Made by a program: the position numbers and the translations under genes. From Massilia frigida (GTDB taxonomy: Bacteria > Pseudomonadota > Gammaproteobacteria > Burkholderiales > Burkholderiaceae_D): a stretch of DNA of 64,000 nt. Shown here piece after piece: positions 26,049-41,600 of the stretch. Below the pieces are notes generated by a model. The model was not told where the DNA came from. It saw only the letters and a list, made by a program, of their open reading frames with translations, and did not search any database. Each line of letters opens with the position of its first letter. Position 1 is the stretch's first letter. The stretch is taken from contig NZ_WHJG01000022.1 in assembly GCF_011682175.1 (NCBI RefSeq), positions 1 through 64,000 on the forward strand. The letters are read 5' to 3'.

Positions 26049-26804
26049 TCAGGCCTGGCGCGCTTTCCTGCGCGCCGCGCCGATCACCAGCAGGCCGGCC
26101 GCCAGCATGCCGTATGTTGCCGGTTCAGGTACCGGCGAGGTCGGGGTGCCGGAAAAGTAGGACAACTGGACCGAGGCATCGGCACTGAGCCTGCCCCTGC
26201 CGACCGCCCTTCCCGTCTCGAGCACGCCTTGCAGCAGTTGGCTGCGCTGTCCATGCGTGTTGGTCAGGTTCATGGTAAACGCGTCGCGACCCGACACCCC
26301 ATTGATGTAGGTCGTTAAATCGCCGCTGATGCCGGCGATCGACAGTGCCTTCGTGAGCCCGTCCTGGTCCATGAACGTATCGGCCCGGGCCGAGAACGTT
26401 AGCCGGGTCGATGGCGACAAGGTAAAGTTCGAGTACTGGTATGTGTGGGAACTGACTCCAAGGGGATCGGGCAGCGTGTCCGCGTGCGCTTCGGCGTACA
26501 TGCTGGTGGCTGCGTTGCTCAGGCTGACGCCACCACTGGGGACGGTCCGGCTGATTGCCCCGTAGCTCGCTATATGATCCACGGGACTTGGTTCACCCAA
26601 AGCGGAGTAGTAGAAGGCGCCGCCGATCACCTGGTAGGTGAAAGTAATGCTCGGGCTGATATTGTCAGTCAAGTCCAGGTCGGTCAGGACGAACTCGATA
26701 TTGCTCAGGCTAGCGGTGGCCTTGGCATGACCCGCATGGGCCGGGGCGCAGGCCAGGATGCCGGCTGCAAACAGGCCGGCGACGATCTTCAATGGGTGGA
26801 GCAT
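26049..26804 (-). CDS. PEP-CTERM sorting-domain protein (type A, copy 1)
   Basis: A 251-residue exported protein. Signal peptide MLHPLKIVAGLFAAGILACAPAHA, a beta-rich passenger with TDLDLTDNISPSITFTY and NFTLSPSTRLTFSA, and a C-terminal PEP-CTERM tail: VPEPATYG, a hydrophobic stretch (MLAAGLLVIGAA) and RRKARQA. Such tails are processed by an exosortase, which is not in this window. An upstream in-frame ATG at 26879 overlaps the previous gene's stop as ATGA, but its extra 25 residues would bury the signal peptide, so 26804 is preferred. Homologous to the three neighbouring PEP-CTERM proteins. Confidence 0.88.
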   Translation of the reverse strand: MLHPLKIVAGLFAAGILACAPAHAGHAKATASLSNIEFVLTDLDLTDNISPSITFTYQVIGGAFYYSALGEPSPVDHIASYGAISRTVPSGGVSLSNAATSMYAEAHADTLPDPLGVSSHTYQYSNFTLSPSTRLTFSARADTFMDQDGLTKALSIAGISGDLTTYINGVSGRDAFTMNLTNTHGQRSQLLQGVLETGRAVGRGRLSADASVQLSYFSGTPTSPVPEPATYGMLAAGLLVIGAARRKARQA

Positions 26805-26875
26805 GGTGGACTTTCGATCAGGATGGTGGTTCGCGGTCGTGCCGACCGGACGTGGATGCGCAGTGGCGGCGGTGT

Positions 26876-27637
26876 TCATGCCGCTTGGCGGGCGACTGCC
26901 TGGCGTCGGCGGCGCGCCAGCGCGCCCACTAAACATGTTCCGGCCAACAGCATTGCGTAGCTCGACGGTTCGGGAACGGAGGGGATCGGCGTGATCGGCG
27001 CGGAAAGAGAAACGGCGGTCTCCAGGGAGAATTGGCCCTGGCGCGCCTGGGCGTCCGACATCAGCATCCCGTACAGGTTGATGGTGCCTGCCCCGTAGTT
27101 GGTATGGTAGGACTTCTCGAACGTACTCGTCCAATCAGCTTCGACCCCCAGCGTGCCTTGCATTTTGATACGACTGTCAGAGTAATCAAACTTCTGCACG
27201 AGTTGTTCGGACAGCCTGGCCACACCGGTAAGTATCAGCCGGGTATTGGGGCTGAGGGTGAACGAGGCGGAATAAGCGTTGCTGTTCCCGTACTTGTGCT
27301 TGACGCCATCGGCGGGAACGGGGAAGTTGACGCTTGCCGTGGACGACATGGTGCCGCGCGAGAGCGTGCTGCCGGAGGTGCCGAATGCGGTCACGATCGA
27401 GGTGGTTCCGGGCGCAGCGAGGCTCTGGTGCTGGCCCGCCCCGTAGGTCTCGCTCGACCAGCGCTCGTCGGCGAAGATGATCGATGGGGAAATGCCGTCG
27501 GCCAGGTCGAGGTCGACGAGCTGGTACTGGAAGTGGTCGATGCTGGCGGCCACCGTGCTGCTCGCCGCCTGGGCGGGCGCCCACGCGGCGGCCAGCGCCA
27601 GTGCGCAAAGAGAAAATTTGTTCAGGTGCGGGTACAT
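26876..27637 (-). CDS. PEP-CTERM sorting-domain protein (type B, copy 1)
   Basis: A 253-residue exported protein with signal peptide MYPHLNKFSLCALALAAAWA.., passenger motifs VDLDLADGISPSIIF and SFTLSPNTRLILTG shared with the type A proteins, and the C-terminal anchor VPEPSSYAMLLAG with an Arg-rich end. It lies 71 bases upstream of the type A gene and probably shares its transcript. AAGG precedes the ATG. The promoter region contains an element conserved in copy 2. Function unknown; PEP-CTERM proteins in this group usually belong to extracellular-matrix or surface layers. Confidence 0.88.
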   Translation of the reverse strand: MYPHLNKFSLCALALAAAWAPAQAASSTVAASIDHFQYQLVDLDLADGISPSIIFADERWSSETYGAGQHQSLAAPGTTSIVTAFGTSGSTLSRGTMSSTASVNFPVPADGVKHKYGNSNAYSASFTLSPNTRLILTGVARLSEQLVQKFDYSDSRIKMQGTLGVEADWTSTFEKSYHTNYGAGTINLYGMLMSDAQARQGQFSLETAVSLSAPITPIPSVPEPSSYAMLLAGTCLVGALARRRRQAVARQAA

Positions 27638-27739
27638 TTGTGCCTTTGGGAGGTTGACTGTCGCGTATGGACAGACTATTGACTAGAATACATGACATTT
27701 GGTTAATATGCCATGTAAAGCAATAATCTGTTCAAGATG

Positions 27740-27888
27740 TCGCCGCCTGCTTCCGCGAGACGCTCCATTGCAAGAACGCACTGTATCTGGACGGCTCGAT
27801 ATCGAGCCTGGTCTCGACCCAACTGGGGTGCGCCGGCTTCGGCCCGCCCCTGGGGCCGATCCTGGGCGTGGTGGAACCGGCCCCGCGC
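27740..27888 (+). pseudogene. Duplicated 3' fragment of the NAGPA-like gene
   Basis: About 150 bases match the end of the gene at 25302-26012, including the part encoding ALYLDGSISSL and the terminal GPILGVVEPAPR, where the stop codon TAA has become CAA. About ten substitutions separate the copies. There is no start or signal peptide. It is a relic of the tandem duplication; the rest of 27638-27927 is the upstream region of the type B gene and a copy of the GC-rich hairpin. Confidence 0.85.
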
Positions 27889-27927
27889 CAAGGCAGGCGC
27901 TGGCGCCTGCCTTGGCGCCTGCCTGCA

Positions 27928-28677
27928 TCAGGCCTTGCGCGCTTTCCTGCGCGCCGCGCCGATGACCAGCAGGCCGGCCGCCAGCAAGCCGTACGTTGCC
28001 GGTTCAGGTACCGGCGAGGTGGCGCCAGAGTGGACCAAGCTGATCGTGGTGCTGGCGGAAAGTGTTCCTCTGGCGACGCCCGCTCCCGAACTGAGCGCGC
28101 CTTCCAATAAGCGGCTGCCCTTTCCCTCCTTGCTATCGAGGGCCGTGTGAAAATCGCTGAATCCATCCACCCCGTTGATAGTCGAATACAAGCTGCCGCT
28201 CATACGGGCAGTCGACGATGCCCGATCGATCCCCTTCTGGTCCAGGAAAGCATCGGCTTGTGCCGAGAACATCAGCCTGGTCGAAGGCGACAGGGTGAAG
28301 GAGAGGCTTTGCGCCGTGTGGACCTGCACCGAAAGGCTCGACGGGACCGAATTCACATGCGCTTCCACATGCAAGCCGGTGGGCGCACTGGTCGCGCTGG
28401 CGCTGCCAGTCGCGTAAGCGCCGCTGATCGTCCCGTAATCCGGCAAGTAGCGCGTGCCACCCTGCTTGCCGGAAAGGAAGGTGAGGTAGCCGTCGAATTG
28501 CGTGAAGTTGAACGTGATGCTCGGGGTGATATTGTCAGTCAGGTCCAGGTCGATCAGCTGAAACTGGAAGTTGTTCAGGTTGGCCGATGCATGGCTATAA
28601 GCGGCTTGGGCCGGGGCGCACGCCAGCATGCCGGCTGCAAGCAGGCCGGCGACAAGCTTGGATGGAAGGACGGGCAT
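27928..28677 (-). CDS. PEP-CTERM sorting-domain protein (type A, copy 2)
   Basis: A 249-residue exported protein with signal peptide MPVLPSKLVAGLLAAGMLAC.., passenger motif IDLDLTDNITPSITFNF and C-terminal VPEPATYGLLAAGLLVIG followed by RRKARKA. The sorting tail is almost identical to copy 1 at DNA level, while the passenger between about residues 60 and 215 is clearly diverged. As in copy 1, an alternative in-frame ATG (28752) overlaps the upstream stop as ATGA. Confidence 0.88.
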   Translation of the reverse strand: MPVLPSKLVAGLLAAGMLACAPAQAAYSHASANLNNFQFQLIDLDLTDNITPSITFNFTQFDGYLTFLSGKQGGTRYLPDYGTISGAYATGSASATSAPTGLHVEAHVNSVPSSLSVQVHTAQSLSFTLSPSTRLMFSAQADAFLDQKGIDRASSTARMSGSLYSTINGVDGFSDFHTALDSKEGKGSRLLEGALSSGAGVARGTLSASTTISLVHSGATSPVPEPATYGLLAAGLLVIGAARRKARKA

Positions 28678-28748
28678 GGAAGTCTTTCGGTGATGGTGGC
28701 TGTGTCCGGGCGTGGCGAGCGGGTGGGGAAGCGCAGTGGAGGCGGCGT

Positions 28749-29510
28749 TCATGCCGCTTGACGGGCAACTGCCCGGCGTTGACGGCGCGCAACGGCGCCT
28801 ACCAGGAACGTGCCCGCAAGCAGCATGCCGTAGGTAGACGGTTCGGGAACGGGGCTGGTGAGCGGCTCCGCAAGAATCGCGTAGGTGTGCAGCGAGAGAT
28901 GGCCCTGTCCCGCCCGTTCATCGGTACGCAATTGCCCGTACAGGTTCATGCTGGTCGAGCCTGCCTGGGTGCGGTACTCGGACCTGAATTGCTGGGTGTA
29001 TCCCCCCGGCTCGCCCCACATATACCCGTCCATGCCGATAAAACTGGATGCCTGGCGGAAATAGCCTGCGCGCTCCTGCGAGACCGTGCCGACGCCGGTA
29101 AAAATCAACAGGGTATGCGGGCTGAGCGTGAACGCGGCGGTGCGAAAGTTTTCATTTTTGAAAGACTGGTAGCTGTTATCAAGCGGCACGGAATGATCGA
29201 GGCTGGCCGCGGACACCATTGTGGTGTCGGACAGCGTGCCGCGGGCCGACCCGAATACGTTCTCCAACAAGGTGGTTCCGGCTTCGTCGAGGGTCTGGCG
29301 TTGCCCCGCTCCCTGGGTGTCGTTCGACCAGGCCTGCTCGGTAAAGGTGAGGGATGGCGTAATACCATCGGACAAGTTCAAGTCGATGAGCTCGTAGCGG
29401 AAATGCGCGATCGCGGCTGTCGCTGTACTGGTCGCTGCATGGGCGGGCGCCCACGCGGCCGCCAGCAAAGTCAGTGCGCAGAGAGAAAATCTGGGAAAGT
29501 GCGCGTGCAT
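28749..29510 (-). CDS. PEP-CTERM sorting-domain protein (type B, copy 2)
   Basis: A 253-residue exported protein. MHAHFPRFSLCALTLLAAAW is the signal peptide start, with AAGG upstream at the right distance; a longer in-frame start at 29567 falls in the promoter region. Passenger motifs IDLNLSDGITPSLTF and AFTLSPHTLLIFTG match the other three paralogues. The C-terminus is VPEPSTYGMLLAG plus an Arg-rich tail. It heads the two-gene unit with the type A gene 71 bases downstream. Confidence 0.88.
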   Translation of the reverse strand: MHAHFPRFSLCALTLLAAAWAPAHAATSTATAAIAHFRYELIDLNLSDGITPSLTFTEQAWSNDTQGAGQRQTLDEAGTTLLENVFGSARGTLSDTTMVSAASLDHSVPLDNSYQSFKNENFRTAAFTLSPHTLLIFTGVGTVSQERAGYFRQASSFIGMDGYMWGEPGGYTQQFRSEYRTQAGSTSMNLYGQLRTDERAGQGHLSLHTYAILAEPLTSPVPEPSTYGMLLAGTFLVGAVARRQRRAVARQAA

Positions 29511-34603: not shown

Positions 34604-35947
34604 ATGTCGATTTCCCATGCCACTTTCAACCACGCCTTGCGCATACCGCTGGCGGCCGAAGTCCATTCGCGCCCGTCGCTGCGCCTGAACGGCCCCGAAA
34701 CGCTGACCCACCTGGCGGTCTACGCGCGCGACGAGGGTGATGCCGATGCGCATCAGCTGGCGTGCCAGAACCAGTTGCTGGCCGGGCTGTGCCGCTATTT
34801 CGGGGTGGCGCCGCCGCACCCGGAAGCGCGCTATTTTTTCCACGATTTCGGCAATTTTCGCCTGCAATGGGAGTCGCATACCGAGTTTTCCACCTACACT
34901 TTCGCCGAACAGCGCGCCCAGCCTGTCGCGGCCGAGCACGCGTTCGAGCAGGTGCCGCTGCGCCATGTTCCCGATGAGTGGCTGCTGAGCCTGGAAGGCA
35001 AGGTGATGGCCGCCACCCACGTGACCTTGCAGCAGGTGAGCGCGTCGCTGACCGAGATGCGCCACGTGTTTGGCGGCAATCTGCTGGTTGGCTGCGACAG
35101 CCAGAATTTTGCCAAGGTCTGGACCGATTTCGCGATCGCGCCCGATGGTTTCGGCAGGGTCGTGATCCAGGACCTGGGCATGCAGTACCAGCAGGCCGGG
35201 CGCCTGGTGCAGCGGGTGCTGGAAATCGAAACCTACCGCATGATGGCGCTGCTGGGCTTGCCGCAAGCGCAGCTGGCCGCGCCCGTGCTCAACGGCATCG
35301 AGGCCGACCTGGCGCGCCTCTCGGCCGGCATGACCGATGCGAGCGATGCGATTCCCGATACGCCGGATGCGCCCGACGGCGAGCAAGTCTTGCTGCAAAA
35401 AATCACGGTGCTGGCCGCGCGCATGGAAAAGCTGGCGCTGGAAAACAGTTACCGTTTCGCCGCTTCAAAAGCCTATTACCGGCTGGTGCAGGCGCGCATC
35501 GAGGAGTTGCGCGAAGCGCGCATTCCGGGCGTGCCGACCATCCGCGAATTCATGGACCGGCGCCTGGCCCCGGCCATGAACACGTGCGAGTCGACCGTGC
35601 GGCGCCAGGAAGCGCTGGCCGAGCGCATCGGCCGCACCAATGACTTGCTGCGCACGCGCGTGGGCATCGTGCAGGAACAGCAAAACCGGCGCATCCTGGA
35701 GTCGCTCAACGCGCGCGCGGCCCAGCAGCTGCGCTTGCAGCAGGCGGTCGAGGGGCTGTCGGTGGTGGCCATTTCCTACTATTCGATCGGGCTGATCGCG
35801 TATGCGGGCAAGGCCATGAAGGCGGCTGGCGTGCCGATCAATCCGGACATGGTGACCGGCGCCGCCATGCCGGTGATGCTCGCCATTGTCTGGCTGGGGT
35901 TGCGCCGCATGCATCACCATGTGAGCCGCCAGGCTATTCGGTCTTGA
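34604..35947 (+). CDS. DUF3422 family membrane protein
   Basis: A 447-residue protein of the DUF3422 family, which is found in many proteobacteria and has no known function. Recognisable parts are the N-terminal RIPLAAEVHSRPSLRLNGPE, FFHDFGNFRLQWESHTEFST and GQDLGMQ-like region RVVIQDLGMQYQQAGRLVQR, then a long helical segment and two C-terminal membrane helices (about 385-405 and 420-440). Start at ATG 34604; it lies 23 bases after greB. The 3' end overlaps the convergent gene by 14 bases. Confidence 0.88.
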   Translation: MSISHATFNHALRIPLAAEVHSRPSLRLNGPETLTHLAVYARDEGDADAHQLACQNQLLAGLCRYFGVAPPHPEARYFFHDFGNFRLQWESHTEFSTYTFAEQRAQPVAAEHAFEQVPLRHVPDEWLLSLEGKVMAATHVTLQQVSASLTEMRHVFGGNLLVGCDSQNFAKVWTDFAIAPDGFGRVVIQDLGMQYQQAGRLVQRVLEIETYRMMALLGLPQAQLAAPVLNGIEADLARLSAGMTDASDAIPDTPDAPDGEQVLLQKITVLAARMEKLALENSYRFAASKAYYRLVQARIEELREARIPGVPTIREFMDRRLAPAMNTCESTVRRQEALAERIGRTNDLLRTRVGIVQEQQNRRILESLNARAAQQLRLQQAVEGLSVVAISYYSIGLIAYAGKAMKAAGVPINPDMVTGAAMPVMLAIVWLGLRRMHHHVSRQAIRS

Positions 35948-37322
35948 GTGTGGCGCGGCCCGGCTGCTGGTCGACTGGCTTGCCTGGGGCGAAGATCCAG
36001 GACGTGGTGGAAAAGGCCAGGTCCGACCAGCTCATGCCGTTGTCGCGCGACTCGCTGCGCAGCACGGCGCTGACCGTGCAGACGGGCGGCCTGATGTGGC
36101 GCGGGTCGCTGCCGCCGCAGCCCTCCGGTACGACCGGATATTCCAGCGCAAGCACGTTGTTGCGCCGGGTCACTGCGGCAGGCGGTTCGGTTTGCTCGCC
36201 CCAGGTCAGGTCCTGGCCCTTGAGCGACTCGTTGATTTGGCGCGGCAACTCGCCCGGATACCAGATCTTGTCCGGATACGTCAATTGGGTGAAGCGCTTG
36301 CGGTCCCGGTCGAGCATGGTGATGCCGATGTAGGGAACGCCATTCGCAAGGCCGGCGGTCCCGCAGACCTCGTCGAGCTTGGGACGCGGCACATCCGCCA
36401 GGAACCTGAGCCTGGACAGTTCGGGTTCCACGTCGATGGCGGCCCGGCCGGGCGCGGCGACATAGGCAATCGAGACCAGCTGCACGAAAACCGACCTTTC
36501 GCCGCCCCATTCGCGCTTGAGTTCTTCGTCACTCGGCTGCTTGCCGGAGAGAATGAATTCGGAGTGATCGGGCAGGCGGCAACGCATCGTCAGCGGCTTG
36601 CCCTGCGCCAGCACATTGCGCCGGTCGCGGCGTTTGTCTTCGGCGGGCGCAAAGCGTGGCCTGGCGGCGTCCGGCTGGTCCAGCGCCGGTTTGCCGATGG
36701 TGAACAATCTGGACGCGCTGGTGAGAACTGGCGCGCTCCATGTATCCCCCTGGTCGCTCGATTGCATTTGCAGCACGTGCGACAGTGGCGCGCGGTGAAC
36801 ATCGGCATCGGCGTAGTGGCCCCGGTAGCGGCGCGTGAACGCTTCTTCAAGCACCCATGTGCCGCCGAGCTCCACCATGCGGCTGTAGCCGCTATAGTTC
36901 AGGGCCTCGCGCGGGGATTGGCGATTGGCCTGTGTTTCCACCTCTTCATTGTCTGGGCGATGCGCTTGCACGGAGGCGACCTGGCCCCTGGCGATGCTCC
37001 GGTACTGCCCATCGTCGGAGGCGGGGGCATGGACGCTGTTGCCCCTGGCATAAAACCGGGCGCACATTGCTGCTGGCGTAGCCGAGTCGTCGGGCTTGTC
37101 CAGCGATGTCTCGCCCAGCTCGACCGGTGCGCCGCCGCCGGGTGCAAGGTAGCGTGTGTCGTATCGGGAATCGCAGTCCCCACTCACGCCGGCCGGCGCC
37201 TTGCAGTGTGCCTCCATCACAATGCGGCCGCCCTGGGGCAGCACGCATTCCAGGCTGTCGCGGGCAAAGCCGGACCGGGCATGCAGGCCCAGCACCAGCA
37301 CGGTCACAAAGGCGATGTTCAT
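35934..37322 (-). CDS. Exported protein with two Asp-box modules (pair member Y, copy 1)
   Basis: A 462-residue protein, not recognised. MNIAFVTVLVLGLHARSGFA is the signal peptide. The mature chain looks like two tandem copies of one module. Copy 1 begins LECVLPQGGRIVMEAHC and ends with QSSDQGDTWSAP and FTIGKPALDQPDAARP. Copy 2 begins MRCRLPDHSEFILSG and ends with SESRDNGMSWSD and IFAPGKPVDQQPGRA. SxDxGx(T/S)W is the Asp-box/BNR motif. A mid-module Cys (AAMCARF, LDEVCGTAGL) is conserved. The start overlaps the upstream gene as ATGA. Last gene of a four-gene operon. Confidence 0.8.
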   Translation of the reverse strand: MNIAFVTVLVLGLHARSGFARDSLECVLPQGGRIVMEAHCKAPAGVSGDCDSRYDTRYLAPGGGAPVELGETSLDKPDDSATPAAMCARFYARGNSVHAPASDDGQYRSIARGQVASVQAHRPDNEEVETQANRQSPREALNYSGYSRMVELGGTWVLEEAFTRRYRGHYADADVHRAPLSHVLQMQSSDQGDTWSAPVLTSASRLFTIGKPALDQPDAARPRFAPAEDKRRDRRNVLAQGKPLTMRCRLPDHSEFILSGKQPSDEELKREWGGERSVFVQLVSIAYVAAPGRAAIDVEPELSRLRFLADVPRPKLDEVCGTAGLANGVPYIGITMLDRDRKRFTQLTYPDKIWYPGELPRQINESLKGQDLTWGEQTEPPAAVTRRNNVLALEYPVVPEGCGGSDPRHIRPPVCTVSAVLRSESRDNGMSWSDLAFSTTSWIFAPGKPVDQQPGRATLKTE

Positions 37323-38095
37323 TCGGTGCATTTGGTCTGGCATGGCTGCTCGTCGCGGTTGCGGTAATTGCGCAGGCTGCGCGCGGAAGGGTGGGCGATG
37401 CCGGTTTGCCGCGCGAGCGCGATGCCGGTGTCGAAAAAGTAGGGCGCGGTTTCGATGCTGGCCGGCTGCCAGGTGTCGCCCCGGTCGCTTGAGGTCATGC
37501 GCAGCACGGCGCTTACTGGGCATTGCTGGGCGTCGGGTTCGGCGCAGGCGGGAGCGTCGGCCGCGTACAAGGGCAGCTCCTGCACCAGCTTGCCCTGGTG
37601 GATGGCCAGGGCGCTGTTTTTCCCCATCACGCGCAAGCCGCGCTGCGTTAACAGTGCATCGATACGGCGCTGTTCCTGTTTGTCGAGATTGTCCTTGCCG
37701 GTGCGCGCAGGCACCCAGAAGCGTTTTTCTCCCGGCATGCGCAGGGACAGGCCGGTACCCGGCTGGCCCAGGTGGTGGCCCAGGCGGGAGCACAGGACTT
37801 CCAGGTTCGGCCGTTGCTGCAAATTCAGGTATGCCAGGCTGGCGCCCGTGTATGCCAGATTGCCGGTGCCGCGCGCGCGGTAGTACACCTTGAAATCTTG
37901 CTGGTCAGCGCGGTTGGCGCGACGGCGCGTGAGCTCATTCGGAAACGCCCAGTCATGTTGTGCCTGCAGGATGAAAGCGCTGCCGTCGGCCAGTTCGCAT
38001 TCGACGGTTTCGGTGAGCTCGACGGCGCAGGCCTTGCCCATGAAGGCGGCGGCAAGGCAGAAGGAGAGCGTGTGCAGAAAACGGCGATGTCGCAT
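37319..38095 (-). CDS. Exported protein with one Asp-box module (pair member X, copy 1)
   Basis: A 258-residue protein with signal peptide MRHRRFLHTLSFCLAAAFMG and a single copy of the module seen twice in its neighbours: VECELADGSAFILQA at the start, LEVLCSRLG in the middle, and CPVSAVLRMTSSDRGDTWQ then FFDTGIALARQTGIAHPSA at the end. Two more Cys lie at the C-terminus (QPCQTKC). The start at 38095 lies 37 bases after the previous gene. Asp-box motifs mark beta-propeller or BNR-type folds, but one copy alone cannot make a propeller. Function unknown. Confidence 0.8.
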   Translation of the reverse strand: MRHRRFLHTLSFCLAAAFMGKACAVELTETVECELADGSAFILQAQHDWAFPNELTRRRANRADQQDFKVYYRARGTGNLAYTGASLAYLNLQQRPNLEVLCSRLGHHLGQPGTGLSLRMPGEKRFWVPARTGKDNLDKQEQRRIDALLTQRGLRVMGKNSALAIHQGKLVQELPLYAADAPACAEPDAQQCPVSAVLRMTSSDRGDTWQPASIETAPYFFDTGIALARQTGIAHPSARSLRNYRNRDEQPCQTKCTE

Positions 38096-38132
38096 GGAGT
38101 TGCTTCCGGAAAGGTGATGGAGGAGGGCGGGC

Positions 38133-39512
38133 TTAGCGGCGTTGCAGCGTGGCGCGTCCGGGCTGCTGCTCCAGTGGCTTGCCGGGCGTGAAGATCCAGG
38201 ATGCTCTCGAGAAGGCGAGATCGGACCAGCTGGCCCCGTTGTCCTGCGATTCGCTGCGCAGCACGCCGCCAACCGGACAGACGGGAGCCTTGTCGACCCG
38301 GCCAGCGCTGGCGCATTGCCGCGATACGAGCGGGTATTCCAGCCCGATCAGCTTGCCGCGACGGCTGAGCGCAACGTTGTAGCCCATAATCAGGTCCTGA
38401 CGCATCAGCAATTCGCCGAGCTGGCGCGGCGGGTGGCTCGGAAACCAGATCTTGTCCGGATACGCGAATCGGGTGAAGCGCTTGCCATCCTGGTCGAGCA
38501 TGGTGATGCCGATGTAGGGAACGCCGTTGGCCAGGCCGGCGCTGTTGCAGACCTGATCCTGCAGGGGACCTGCGGCGCTCGTCGGCAAGCCCGTGAGCAT
38601 GGCCATGTCGCCATCGACGTCGATGGCGGCCCGGCCCGGCGCGCCGACATAGCTGATCGAGACGAGCGGCACGAAGGGCGGCAGTTCGCCGGCGGATTGA
38701 CGCTGGAGGTCTTCCTCGTTCGGCAGCATGCCGGAAAGCACAAACTCGGATTGATCGGGCAGGCGGCAACGCAGTACCAGTTGCTTGCCCCGTGCCATCA
38801 GCGCGCGCCGTTCCAGGCGCTTGTCGGCGATGCTGACGGCGCCGGGCCTGGCGGCGTCCGGCTGGTCCAGTGCCGAGGTGCCGATGGTGAACAAGCGGGA
38901 CGCGCTGGTGATGAGCGGCGCGCTCCAGCTCTTGCCCTGGTCGGTGGACAGCGTTTGCGACACCTGCGAGACCGGCTGCCGGTAAAAATTGGCATCGGCA
39001 TAGTGGCCCCAGTGCCAGCGCGTCAGCGCTTCTTCGAGCACCCAGGTGCTGCCTTGCACCGCCATGCGCGTATAGCCGGGATCGCTCAGCGCGTGGCGCG
39101 CCGATTCGCGGTTGGCCTCGGCTTCGACGGCTTTATCGTAACGGGGCTTGGCGGTAATCGTTGCGACTTGTCCCTTGGCGAGCATCCGGAAATGCTCCGA
39201 GTCGGTGCCGGGCGCATGCACGGTGTCACCCTTGACATAAAAATGGGCGCACATCTCGGCCGGCGTGCCGGAGTCGTCGGTGCGGCGCAGCGAGGTGATG
39301 CCCAGATCGACCTGCGCGGCGCCGTCCGGTCCCAGGTAGCGCGTGGCGTAGCGCGTATCGCAGGTTTCCGGACGATTGCCGTAGGGGGCTTCGCAGCTGC
39401 CCTCCATCACGATCCGGCCGCCCTGGGGCAGCAGGCATTCCAGGCGGTCCTGGGCAAAGCCGGACTGGGCGTGCAGGCTCAGCACCATTGCGGTCACCAG
39501 CGTAGTTTTCAT
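38133..39512 (-). CDS. Exported protein with two Asp-box modules (pair member Y, copy 2)
   Basis: A 459-residue paralogue of the 35934 gene product. Signal peptide MKTTLVTAMVLSLHAQSGFA; module 1 from LECLLPQGGRIVMEGSC to LSTDQGKSWSAP and FTIGTSALDQPDAARP; module 2 from LRCRLPDQSEFVLSG to SESQDNGASWSD and IFTPGKPLEQQPGRATL. The start at 39512 overlaps the upstream stop as ATGA; three in-frame ATGs lie close together and the signal-peptide start is the best. Confidence 0.8.
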   Translation of the reverse strand: MKTTLVTAMVLSLHAQSGFAQDRLECLLPQGGRIVMEGSCEAPYGNRPETCDTRYATRYLGPDGAAQVDLGITSLRRTDDSGTPAEMCAHFYVKGDTVHAPGTDSEHFRMLAKGQVATITAKPRYDKAVEAEANRESARHALSDPGYTRMAVQGSTWVLEEALTRWHWGHYADANFYRQPVSQVSQTLSTDQGKSWSAPLITSASRLFTIGTSALDQPDAARPGAVSIADKRLERRALMARGKQLVLRCRLPDQSEFVLSGMLPNEEDLQRQSAGELPPFVPLVSISYVGAPGRAAIDVDGDMAMLTGLPTSAAGPLQDQVCNSAGLANGVPYIGITMLDQDGKRFTRFAYPDKIWFPSHPPRQLGELLMRQDLIMGYNVALSRRGKLIGLEYPLVSRQCASAGRVDKAPVCPVGGVLRSESQDNGASWSDLAFSRASWIFTPGKPLEQQPGRATLQRR

Positions 39513-40306
39513 TCGGTGCATTCCTTCGGACATGGCTGCTCAAGCGGTTTGGCGCCGTTCTCGTCGCGGTGACGGTAATTGCGCAGGCTGCGCGCGGAAG
39601 GGTGGGCCACGCCGGCTTGCCGCGCGAGCGCCATGCCGGTCTTGAAGAAATAGGGCGCCGTTTCGATGCTGGCCGGCTGCCAGGTTTCGCCACGATCGCT
39701 TGAGGTCGTGCGCAGCACGGCGCTCACCGGGCACTGCTGGCCGTTGCGTTCGGCGCAGGCCGGCGCCTTGGCCGCGTACAAGGGCAGTTCCCGCACCAGC
39801 TTGCCCTGGCGGATGGCCATGGCGCTGTTTTCATCCATCACGTGCAAGCCGCGCTGCTTCAACTGCGCATCGACGCGCTGCTGTTGAACCTCGTCGCGCT
39901 TGCCTATGACGCGGGGCGCCGGTACCCAGAAGCGTTTTTCTCCCGGCATGCGCAGGGAAGCACCGGTGCCCGGCTGGCCTTCGTACAGGCCCAGGCGGGC
40001 GCACAGGACTTCCATATTGGCGCCTTGCTCCAGATGCTGATGTTCCATTTTCGCGCCCGCGTCCACCAGTTCTGCGGCGCCGCGCGCGCGGTAGTACACC
40101 TTGAAGTCATCCTGGTCCTCGCGCGCGTTGGCATGGCGCGCGAACACCGCCAGCGGGATCCAGCTATGTTTGGCCTGGAGGACGAAGGCGCTGCCATCGG
40201 CCAGCTCGCATTCGACGGTTTCGGTGCGCTCGACGGCACTGGCGTTCCCCATGAACGCAACGGCAAGGCAGAAGGGGAGCGTGTTCGCAAAACGGCGATA
40301 TCCCAT
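39509..40306 (-). CDS. Exported protein with one Asp-box module (pair member X, copy 2)
   Basis: A 265-residue paralogue of the 37319 gene product and first gene of the four-gene operon. Signal peptide MGYRRFANTLPFCLAVAFMG; module landmarks VECELADGSAFVLQA, MEVLCARLG, CPVSAVLRTTSSDRGETWQ and FFKTGMALARQAGVAHPSA; C-terminal Cys pair (QPCPKEC). The 40307-40514 gap upstream is AT-rich (around 40380-40440) and probably holds the operon promoter, but I cannot assign boxes with confidence. Confidence 0.8.
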   Translation of the reverse strand: MGYRRFANTLPFCLAVAFMGNASAVERTETVECELADGSAFVLQAKHSWIPLAVFARHANAREDQDDFKVYYRARGAAELVDAGAKMEHQHLEQGANMEVLCARLGLYEGQPGTGASLRMPGEKRFWVPAPRVIGKRDEVQQQRVDAQLKQRGLHVMDENSAMAIRQGKLVRELPLYAAKAPACAERNGQQCPVSAVLRTTSSDRGETWQPASIETAPYFFKTGMALARQAGVAHPSARSLRNYRHRDENGAKPLEQPCPKECTE

Positions 40307-40514: not shown

Positions 40515-41600
40515 ATGCACGACTACCGACTCGTACGCCATCCTTTGAGCGCCTTGCTGCTGGGCGCCGCGGCCGTGGTCCACGCCGGCGAGCCGCTGCA
40601 AGCCTTGCCGCACGTGGTGGTGGCCGCCTCGCGCATGAGCCAGTTGGGGGGGCGATTCCGCCAATGCCGGCGTGCTCACCCAGCAGCAACTGGCGGCGCG
40701 CTCGGCGTACCGTCCCGGCGAACTGCTGGAAGCGACGCCCGGCCTGATCGTCAGCCAGCACAGCGGCGAAGGCAAGGCCAAGCAGTTTTACCTGCGCGGC
40801 TTTAACCTCGACCATGGCACCGGCCTGCGCACCACGGTCGACGGCATGCTGGTCAACCAGCGCAGCCACGCCCACGGCCAGGGCTGGACCGACCTGAACT
40901 TCCTGATTCCCGAACTGGCCAACCGGCTCGACTACCGCACGGGGCCGTACTACGCCGACGAAGGCGACTTCGCCGCCGCCGGCGCGCTGGCGGTGCGCTA
41001 CGCCGACACGCTGCCGGAAGGCATCGCCAGCCTGGGCTTGGGCCAGAATGGCTACCGGCGCGCGCTGCTGGCCGATTCGCCCGTGCTCGGCAAGGGCAAG
41101 CTGCTGTAGGCGCTCGAATCGTTCCATCACGATGGGCCGTTTACGCGCGGCGACGATTACAACAAGCTCAACGGCGTGCTGCGGTTCAGCCAGGGCGACG
41201 CCGCCACCCGTTTCGACCTCACGGCCATGGCTTACCGGGGGCGCTGGAACGCCAGCGACCAGATTCCCCGGCGCGCGTGGCCTCGCTGGCGCTGGCGCTC
41301 GACAAGCTGGGGCCGTGGTCCGGGGCGTTGCAGCTGCGTTATGTCGGCCCGCGTCCGTTGATCGAAGACAACAGTGTGCGCTCGCAGCCGGCCACGACCC
41401 TGAACGGGCGCATCGGCTACAAGCGGGGCAAGCGCCTCAAGCTCGAACTGGAAGGCTTCAACCTGGCCAAGCGGCGCAGTTCGGCGATCGATTATTTCTA
41501 CGCATCGCGCCTGCAAGGCGAGCCCGGGGCGGTCGAGGACATCCATTTCCACCCGACCGAAGCGCGCTCGTTCCGGCTGACGCTGAGTTCCTCATTTTGA
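40515..41600 (+). pseudogene. Degraded TonB-dependent outer-membrane receptor
   Basis: The reading frame begins MHDYRLVRHPLSALLLGAAA (signal peptide) and shifts at a run of seven G around 40647-40653. The next frame continues with a plug domain: PGELLEATPGLIVSQHSGEG, FYLRGFNLDHGTGLRT and VNQRSHAHGQGW. An in-frame TAG stands at 41107-41109, after which the same frame reads ESFHHDGPFTRGDDYNKLNG. Near 41270 most of the beta-barrel is missing and a shifted frame picks up the barrel end (NGRIGYKRGKRLKLELEGFN .. FRLTLSSSF). About 360 residues remain of a usual 650-800. Several independent lesions argue against a simple sequencing error. Confidence 0.85.

Follow-up and report, generated by a model that had tools for sequence, protein, structure and literature searches.

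Exported Asp-box modules in an X-Y-X-Y operon of Massilia frigida: a candidate toxin-less polyimmunity locus related to neighbours of Het-C-type Rhs toxin genes

The X-Y-X-Y operon and its module

The window analysed here is a stretch of 64,000 nucleotides from Massilia frigida (contig NZ_WHJG01000022.1, positions 1 to 64,000), and the subject of this work is a minus-strand operon at 35934-40306, whose four genes encode exported proteins made of an Asp-box module and which is considered here as a candidate immunity locus lacking a toxin gene. The open reading frames of this strand follow the order X-Y-X-Y, as the initial annotation had described it. X1 (39509-40306, 265 residues) and X2 (37319-38095, 258 residues) have one module each, and Y1 (38133-39512, 459 residues) and Y2 (35934-37322, 462 residues) have two. 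The ATGA coupling proposed for each pair was confirmed, with the X stop and the Y start overlapping at 39509-39512 and 37319-37322, and the spacing between Y1 and X2 is 37 bases. Inspection of the N-termini, the sole basis for this call, agreed with the signal peptides earlier assigned to all four proteins.

Each of the six modules covers about 200 residues and closes with one Asp-box, S-x-D-x-G-x-x-W, as had been claimed. The box starts at residue 202 in both X proteins, occupying residues 202-209 in X1 (SSDRGETW, 39680-39703) and positions 37469-37492 in X2. In Y1 it starts at residues 189 and 422, within an N-terminal module at about 38820-39452 (box at 38925-38948) and a C-terminal module at about 38136-38801 (box at 38226-38249), and in Y2 at residues 188 and 425, within modules at about 36615-37262 (box at 36738-36761) and 35937-36605 (box at 36027-36050). 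The Ser, Asp, Gly and Trp of the box are invariant in alignments A2-A4, and two Cys per module, one in the LEC/LRC start and the other the mid-module Cys already pointed out in the initial annotation, are invariant in alignments A1-A4. The start pattern given there, C-x-L-x-(D/Q)-(G/H)-(S/G)-x-(F/I)-(I/V)-(L/M), holds for five of the six modules and fails in the C-terminal module of Y1, which reads C-R-L-P-D-Q-S-E-F.

X1 and X2 match each other at E = 1e-129 and X2 matches the C-terminal half of Y1 at E = 7e-13 (BLAST), and the comparison of X with the Y N-terminal halves gave E values from 3e-7 to 3e-5. Profile A2, which was built without any Y N-terminal half, recovered both of these halves (E = 6e-15 and 3.5e-14). 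Judged by these comparisons, the six modules are homologous beyond chance, and so are the two halves of the Y proteins to each other.

The module had been described as fitting no named family, and this view stands, since searches of the X and Y proteins against Pfam and NCBIfam gave nothing above cut-off: NCBIfam had no match, and Pfam had sub-threshold BNR matches only. The best scores to the BNR/Asp-box families PF02012 and PF13088 were under the curated cut-offs (15.5 against 27 bits and 16.6 against 31.4 bits, respectively). A Foldseek search with a model of X (predicted local distance difference test, pLDDT, of 71) had no match at E <= 0.001. Given the middling quality of this model, the result is compatible with a relation to propellers and does not indicate a new fold. 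For Y, the model, made from a five-row alignment, was poor (pLDDT 42, predicted template modelling score 0.28).

Distribution, insertion site and history of the X-Y pairs

The genus sample consisted of 17 genomes, 15 of them at least 90% complete, and the search with profile A3 had matches in seven, with X-Y pairs in six (G000, G148, G192, G111, G181 and G138). The joint occurrence of X and Y in relatives, a point raised in the initial annotation, was borne out by eight X genes in these six genomes, each followed by a Y gene. Two pairs are present in G000 and G148 and a single pair in G192, G111, G181 and G138, these being different species. In wider searches the module was rare, being found in 10 of 378 genomes of the family (the genus accounting for seven of these), 3 of 399 of the order and 1 of 398 of the phylum, where the window genome is counted each time, the genome sets overlap, the best 4-6 candidates per genome were scored and repeated matches to the same gene were merged by place.

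The same two genes flank X-Y in all six genomes. In the window, the left flank is a gene that we take to be DUF3422-like (34604-35947, plus strand), whose 3' end shares 14 bases with that of Y2, and the right flank is a gene for a TonB-dependent receptor (40515-41600, plus strand), with a Plug domain in the piece 40672-41106 (E = 4e-12). In the window, either decay or an assembly fault has left this receptor gene short and out of frame; it encodes 676 residues in G148, G111, G181, G138 and G159. The site is empty in both of the relatives checked (G159 and G094), where the flanking genes adjoin and tblastn searches with X and Y never gave better than E = 0.1. The X-Y operon is thus accessory and occupies one fixed site within the genus. 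The DUF3422-like gene of G159 holds two stops.

The X tree and the Y tree each split into a copy-1 and a copy-2 clade (support 96/97 for X and 100/100 for Y); the copy-2 pair occurs alone in G138, and copy-1 pairs occur in G111, G181 and G192. Because of these clades and the single-pair genomes, the two pairs are read as old, with one of them lost in some lineages. Over its last ~64 columns, the Y protein of G192 is nearer to copy 2 (0.74 and 0.64, compared with 0.66 and 0.43), which suggests recombination between pairs. The ratio of nonsynonymous to synonymous substitution rates (dN/dS) between G000 and G148 was 0.54 for X1, 0.39 for Y1, 0.42 for X2 and 0.36 for Y2, and 0.09, 0.09, 0.24, 0.02, 0.16 and 0.16 for six flanking genes, this one genome pair providing the flank control. 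Across all pairs, where the values have no flank control, it ranged from 0.30 to 0.63 for X and from 0.27 to 0.61 for Y. X and Y are under loose purifying selection, and positive selection is not proven.

Single-module relatives

Profile and sequence searches led from X and Y to exported single-module genes at 11 further loci, four in the genus and seven beyond it; the contig scan among these searches used one peptide pattern, which fitted 34 stretches, seven of them confirmed. Signal-like N-termini of the module proteins were judged by inspection. The loci in the genus are in G159, G181 (contig C122), G111 (contig C8) and G192, the last with the C-terminal part of the module only, and the neighbour of all four genes is presumably a chemotaxis-receptor-like gene. 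Those beyond the genus are in G308, G604, G188 (whose module lacks the Asp-box half), Azoarcus sp. L1K30, G030 and, twice, G621.

Both G621 modules are fused to ankyrin repeats, one recognised as Ank_2 (E = 2e-23) and the other by sequence likeness; ankyrin is among the immunity domains named in the portion of the 2012 polymorphic-toxin survey that was available (PMC3482391). A second exported protein follows the module gene at one G621 locus (L069, 2808-3653). It has a LRCPLSDGSFFEL start and two Asp-box-like motifs. Only the start is tied to the module family by hhalign, and the Pfam BNR score is under cut-off.

The module gene of G030 is one of a series of small genes with repeats between them (L050, 3500-14000). 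The repeats include 13 copies (at least 64% identity) of a 30-base unit (reference GTCCGGGTTGAGCGACGAGTTAAATCTATT) and copies of a 78-80-base repeat with a central GCCGCGAAGCGGC. We take these repeats to be integron attC sites, and a gene upstream is presumably an IS3-like transposase gene.

A match in G255 (E = 1.7e-4) was dropped, as it lies within a frame that presumably encodes a chemotaxis-receptor-like protein; G255 is not listed in the 378-genome profile search, and its membership of that set is uncertain. Phages had no match for X (P0001), the one query run there, and plasmids had none for the queries used, namely the G030 and Azoarcus modules, one toxin domain and the L069 Asp-box protein, X and Y not being among them. 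The peptide patterns for the module profile and for one toxin domain fitted 2 and 12 stretches of viral contigs, respectively, but no such match was confirmed.

Predicted toxin genes beside the module

At four of the seven loci beyond the genus, the module gene directly follows an Rhs gene and shares its strand, a toxin-adjacent position that the window's own genes do not have. The distance from the Rhs stop to the module start is 2 bases in G308, 4 in G604 and 16 and 13 at the two G621 loci, with module start codons chosen by the author or the gene finder. The Rhs core motif is present upstream of the module at all four loci, and TIGR03696 was over cut-off in both of those scanned.

The Rhs C-terminal domains of the four loci all carry H ... 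HxD ... HxxxDxxxHxNxx[DE], a pattern that was composed after viewing these domains and that occurred in none of 1285 stop-to-stop frames of at least 100 codons from 12 other stretches. According to the available text of PMC3482391, Tox-HET-C domains have such residues, with a predicted active site like those of zinc phospholipase C and S1-P1 nuclease. The four domains agree with this signature and are read here as Het-C-type. Pfam VWA7_N scored better on them than Het-C did (E = 4e-8 to 7e-5, above cut-off in one of four). When the toxin domain was sought in 12 genomes, it turned up at four loci in three of them (G308, G604 and G621), all beside a module gene.

A different domain, DUF6765, was found upstream of the module in G188 (4.8 kb away, E = 2e-19), where it ends an Rhs protein, and in Azoarcus (1.7 kb away, E = 3e-18), where its gene lacks the Rhs core motif. 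Both copies carry HxxxDxxxH, and we infer that DUF6765 and Het-C belong together. A search for the HxxxDxxxH toxin-type motif at 17 module loci matched exactly six, four with Het-C and two with DUF6765, and none of the other eleven. Between the DUF6765 gene and the module there are beta-helix genes (Pfam Beta_helix, E = 5e-12, in Azoarcus). The exported beta-helix-like proteins behind the DUF6765 toxin-like genes (L054, 6143-10187; L066, 6423-7577) are perhaps another immunity type.

Proposed function of the module

Here it is proposed, with a probability of roughly 0.6, that the module is an exported immunity family against Het-C-type Rhs toxins and that the window operon is a toxin-less polyimmunity locus. 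In this proposal we infer toxin activity, binding, neutralisation in the periplasm, the disulphide and the present-day use. The module proteins would be exported through Sec and folded with the two invariant Cys joined in a disulphide, and would bind and block the Het-C-type C-terminal domain of Rhs proteins that reaches the periplasm. At several loci outside the genus, the module gene would be the neighbour of its own toxin gene; in the lineage of the window, the X-Y unit lies between the DUF3422-like and TonB-receptor genes and would have been duplicated and kept without a toxin, so that it may protect against the Rhs toxins that other strains deliver, with the Y members acting as putative polyimmunity proteins.

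In favour of the proposal are the homology of the modules, the toxin-gene neighbours of their relatives, the features that the operon shares with polyimmunity loci, the patchy distribution and changing copy number of X-Y, and protein evolution that outpaces that of the flanking genes. Several observations weigh against it. The link to toxins depends on few loci, four by the strict and six by the loose count, and two of the four are from one metagenome-assembled genome; in addition, the Rhs gene of G604 appears split into two overlapping frames (L110, 10726-10801). Pfam Het-C is weak on the four toxin domains (E = 0.0055 to 0.097, none above cut-off), and the 12-genome toxin search was not a free test, because its genomes were chosen for holding the module. 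One strict pattern for the Rhs core motif had no match in the window, nor in stretches of 20 kb around the other five X-Y loci, and neither a Het-C domain nor a DUF6765 match was found in the six X-Y genomes by searches that did detect G308, G604 and G621 (Het-C) and G188 (DUF6765) as positive controls. The X-Y genes are therefore regarded as having no visible toxin. The three intact and one partial single-module genes of the genus likewise have no Rhs core or HxxxDxxxH motif within 17-20 kb, nor does the G030 module have one nearby. Finally, because X has ~20-28% identity to the toxin-linked proteins, its function may have shifted.

This last point, together with the missing toxin-domain matches, would also suit a history in which the family descends from immunity proteins and X-Y has been recruited to another function of the envelope, neutralising no toxin at present. 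The identical site in all six genomes and the constant pairing of X with Y agree with such a recruitment, which is a much less probable explanation. However, presence in 6 of 17 genomes, the empty site in both relatives checked, evolution faster than in the flanking genes and the loss of pairs are more easily reconciled with a reserve of defence genes than with a housekeeping role. With somewhat lower probability still, the module could instead be an exported accessory of Rhs proteins, such as a chaperone, a second effector or a factor for processing or anchoring. Its co-directional position next to Rhs genes at four loci agrees with this, and export would suit work on the Rhs protein outside the cytoplasm. 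Against this, the module is associated with a single type of C-terminal domain (Het-C-like, or the second HxxxDxxxH domain), and it occurs without a nearby Rhs core motif at the X-Y site, in G030 and at the four single-module loci within the genus. Moreover, 18 Rhs-core matches, each over cut-off, were counted in the window genome (loci L111-L120), and none of them has the module alongside, the six module matches of this genome all being in X-Y.

The Asp-box itself would point to a glycan-binding or sialidase-related protein, the most improbable of the explanations considered. The BNR scores are below the Pfam cut-offs, there is one box per ~200 residues and Foldseek had no match at the threshold used, although that result leaves room for a relation. 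An immunity role is preferred over a glycan or sialidase role because single-module relatives sit behind Rhs toxin genes, so that their genomic setting is that of toxin loci.

Relation to known systems

An immunity gene of an Rhs system is found immediately behind that of the toxin, and orphan copies are able to give protection from foreign toxins, as described in the available parts of PMC10539506 and PMC12247911. The Serratia RhsI system resembles the present one in the gene behind an Rhs toxin gene and in protective copies without a toxin; it differs in that its toxins are NADases, as far as the accessible text describes them (PMC10539506), whereas here they are of Het-C type, and the proteins look exported and are known from sequence. 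In the accessible portion of PMC3482391, homogeneous polyimmunity loci are arrays of tandem same-strand paralogues with short gaps, without a toxin, with variable copy number and with multi-domain members. The window operon has this tandem same-strand arrangement, with its two 4-base overlaps, its 37-base gap and no toxin gene in between; its Y members have two domains, and gene number varies among its relatives, which here are species, while the paper speaks also of strains. It differs from the polyimmunity families listed in that text in that the module is not among them and X and Y look exported. The rAID orphan immunity genes are likewise toxin-less and fast-evolving but, in the sections available (PMC12247911), have SUKH domains and a recombinase, whereas X and Y have no Pfam domain above cut-off; no recombinase gene was noticed at the X-Y site, where no dedicated search was made. 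Compared with BNR/Asp-box proteins (PF02012, PF13088), the likeness is one Asp-box motif per module, and the difference is that the module is below the Pfam cut-off and the box is not repeated within it.

No immunity protein is given for Tox-HET-C in the accessible portion of the 2012 survey (PMC3482391), and no such partner was found in the available parts of the literature on Het-C toxins and on Asp-boxes with immunity proteins. Het-C domains are also described, with function unknown, in VgrG proteins of Acinetobacter and Stenotrophomonas (PMC6838775, PMC13055248, in the parts available). The chances are about even that, with this module, a periplasmic immunity family for Het-C-type (zinc hydrolase) Rhs toxins is recognised for the first time, one that would have spread as a toxin neighbour, an integron-like cassette, an ankyrin fusion and, in the window, an X-Y-X-Y shield that lacks a toxin and includes two-domain proteins. 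Het-C domains occur in both bacterial toxin systems and fungal incompatibility, and a candidate partner at the same locus as the toxin makes Het-C toxin activity and its inhibition directly testable. If the proposal is true, it would place the Asp-box outside a glycan setting and clearly exemplify the retention of toxin-less immunity genes at a fixed chromosomal site.

Other genes in the window

Elsewhere in the window, four exported proteins are encoded in a row at 26049-29468, beside an apparent two-component system, and their ends (VPEP..) are presumably PEP-CTERM-like.

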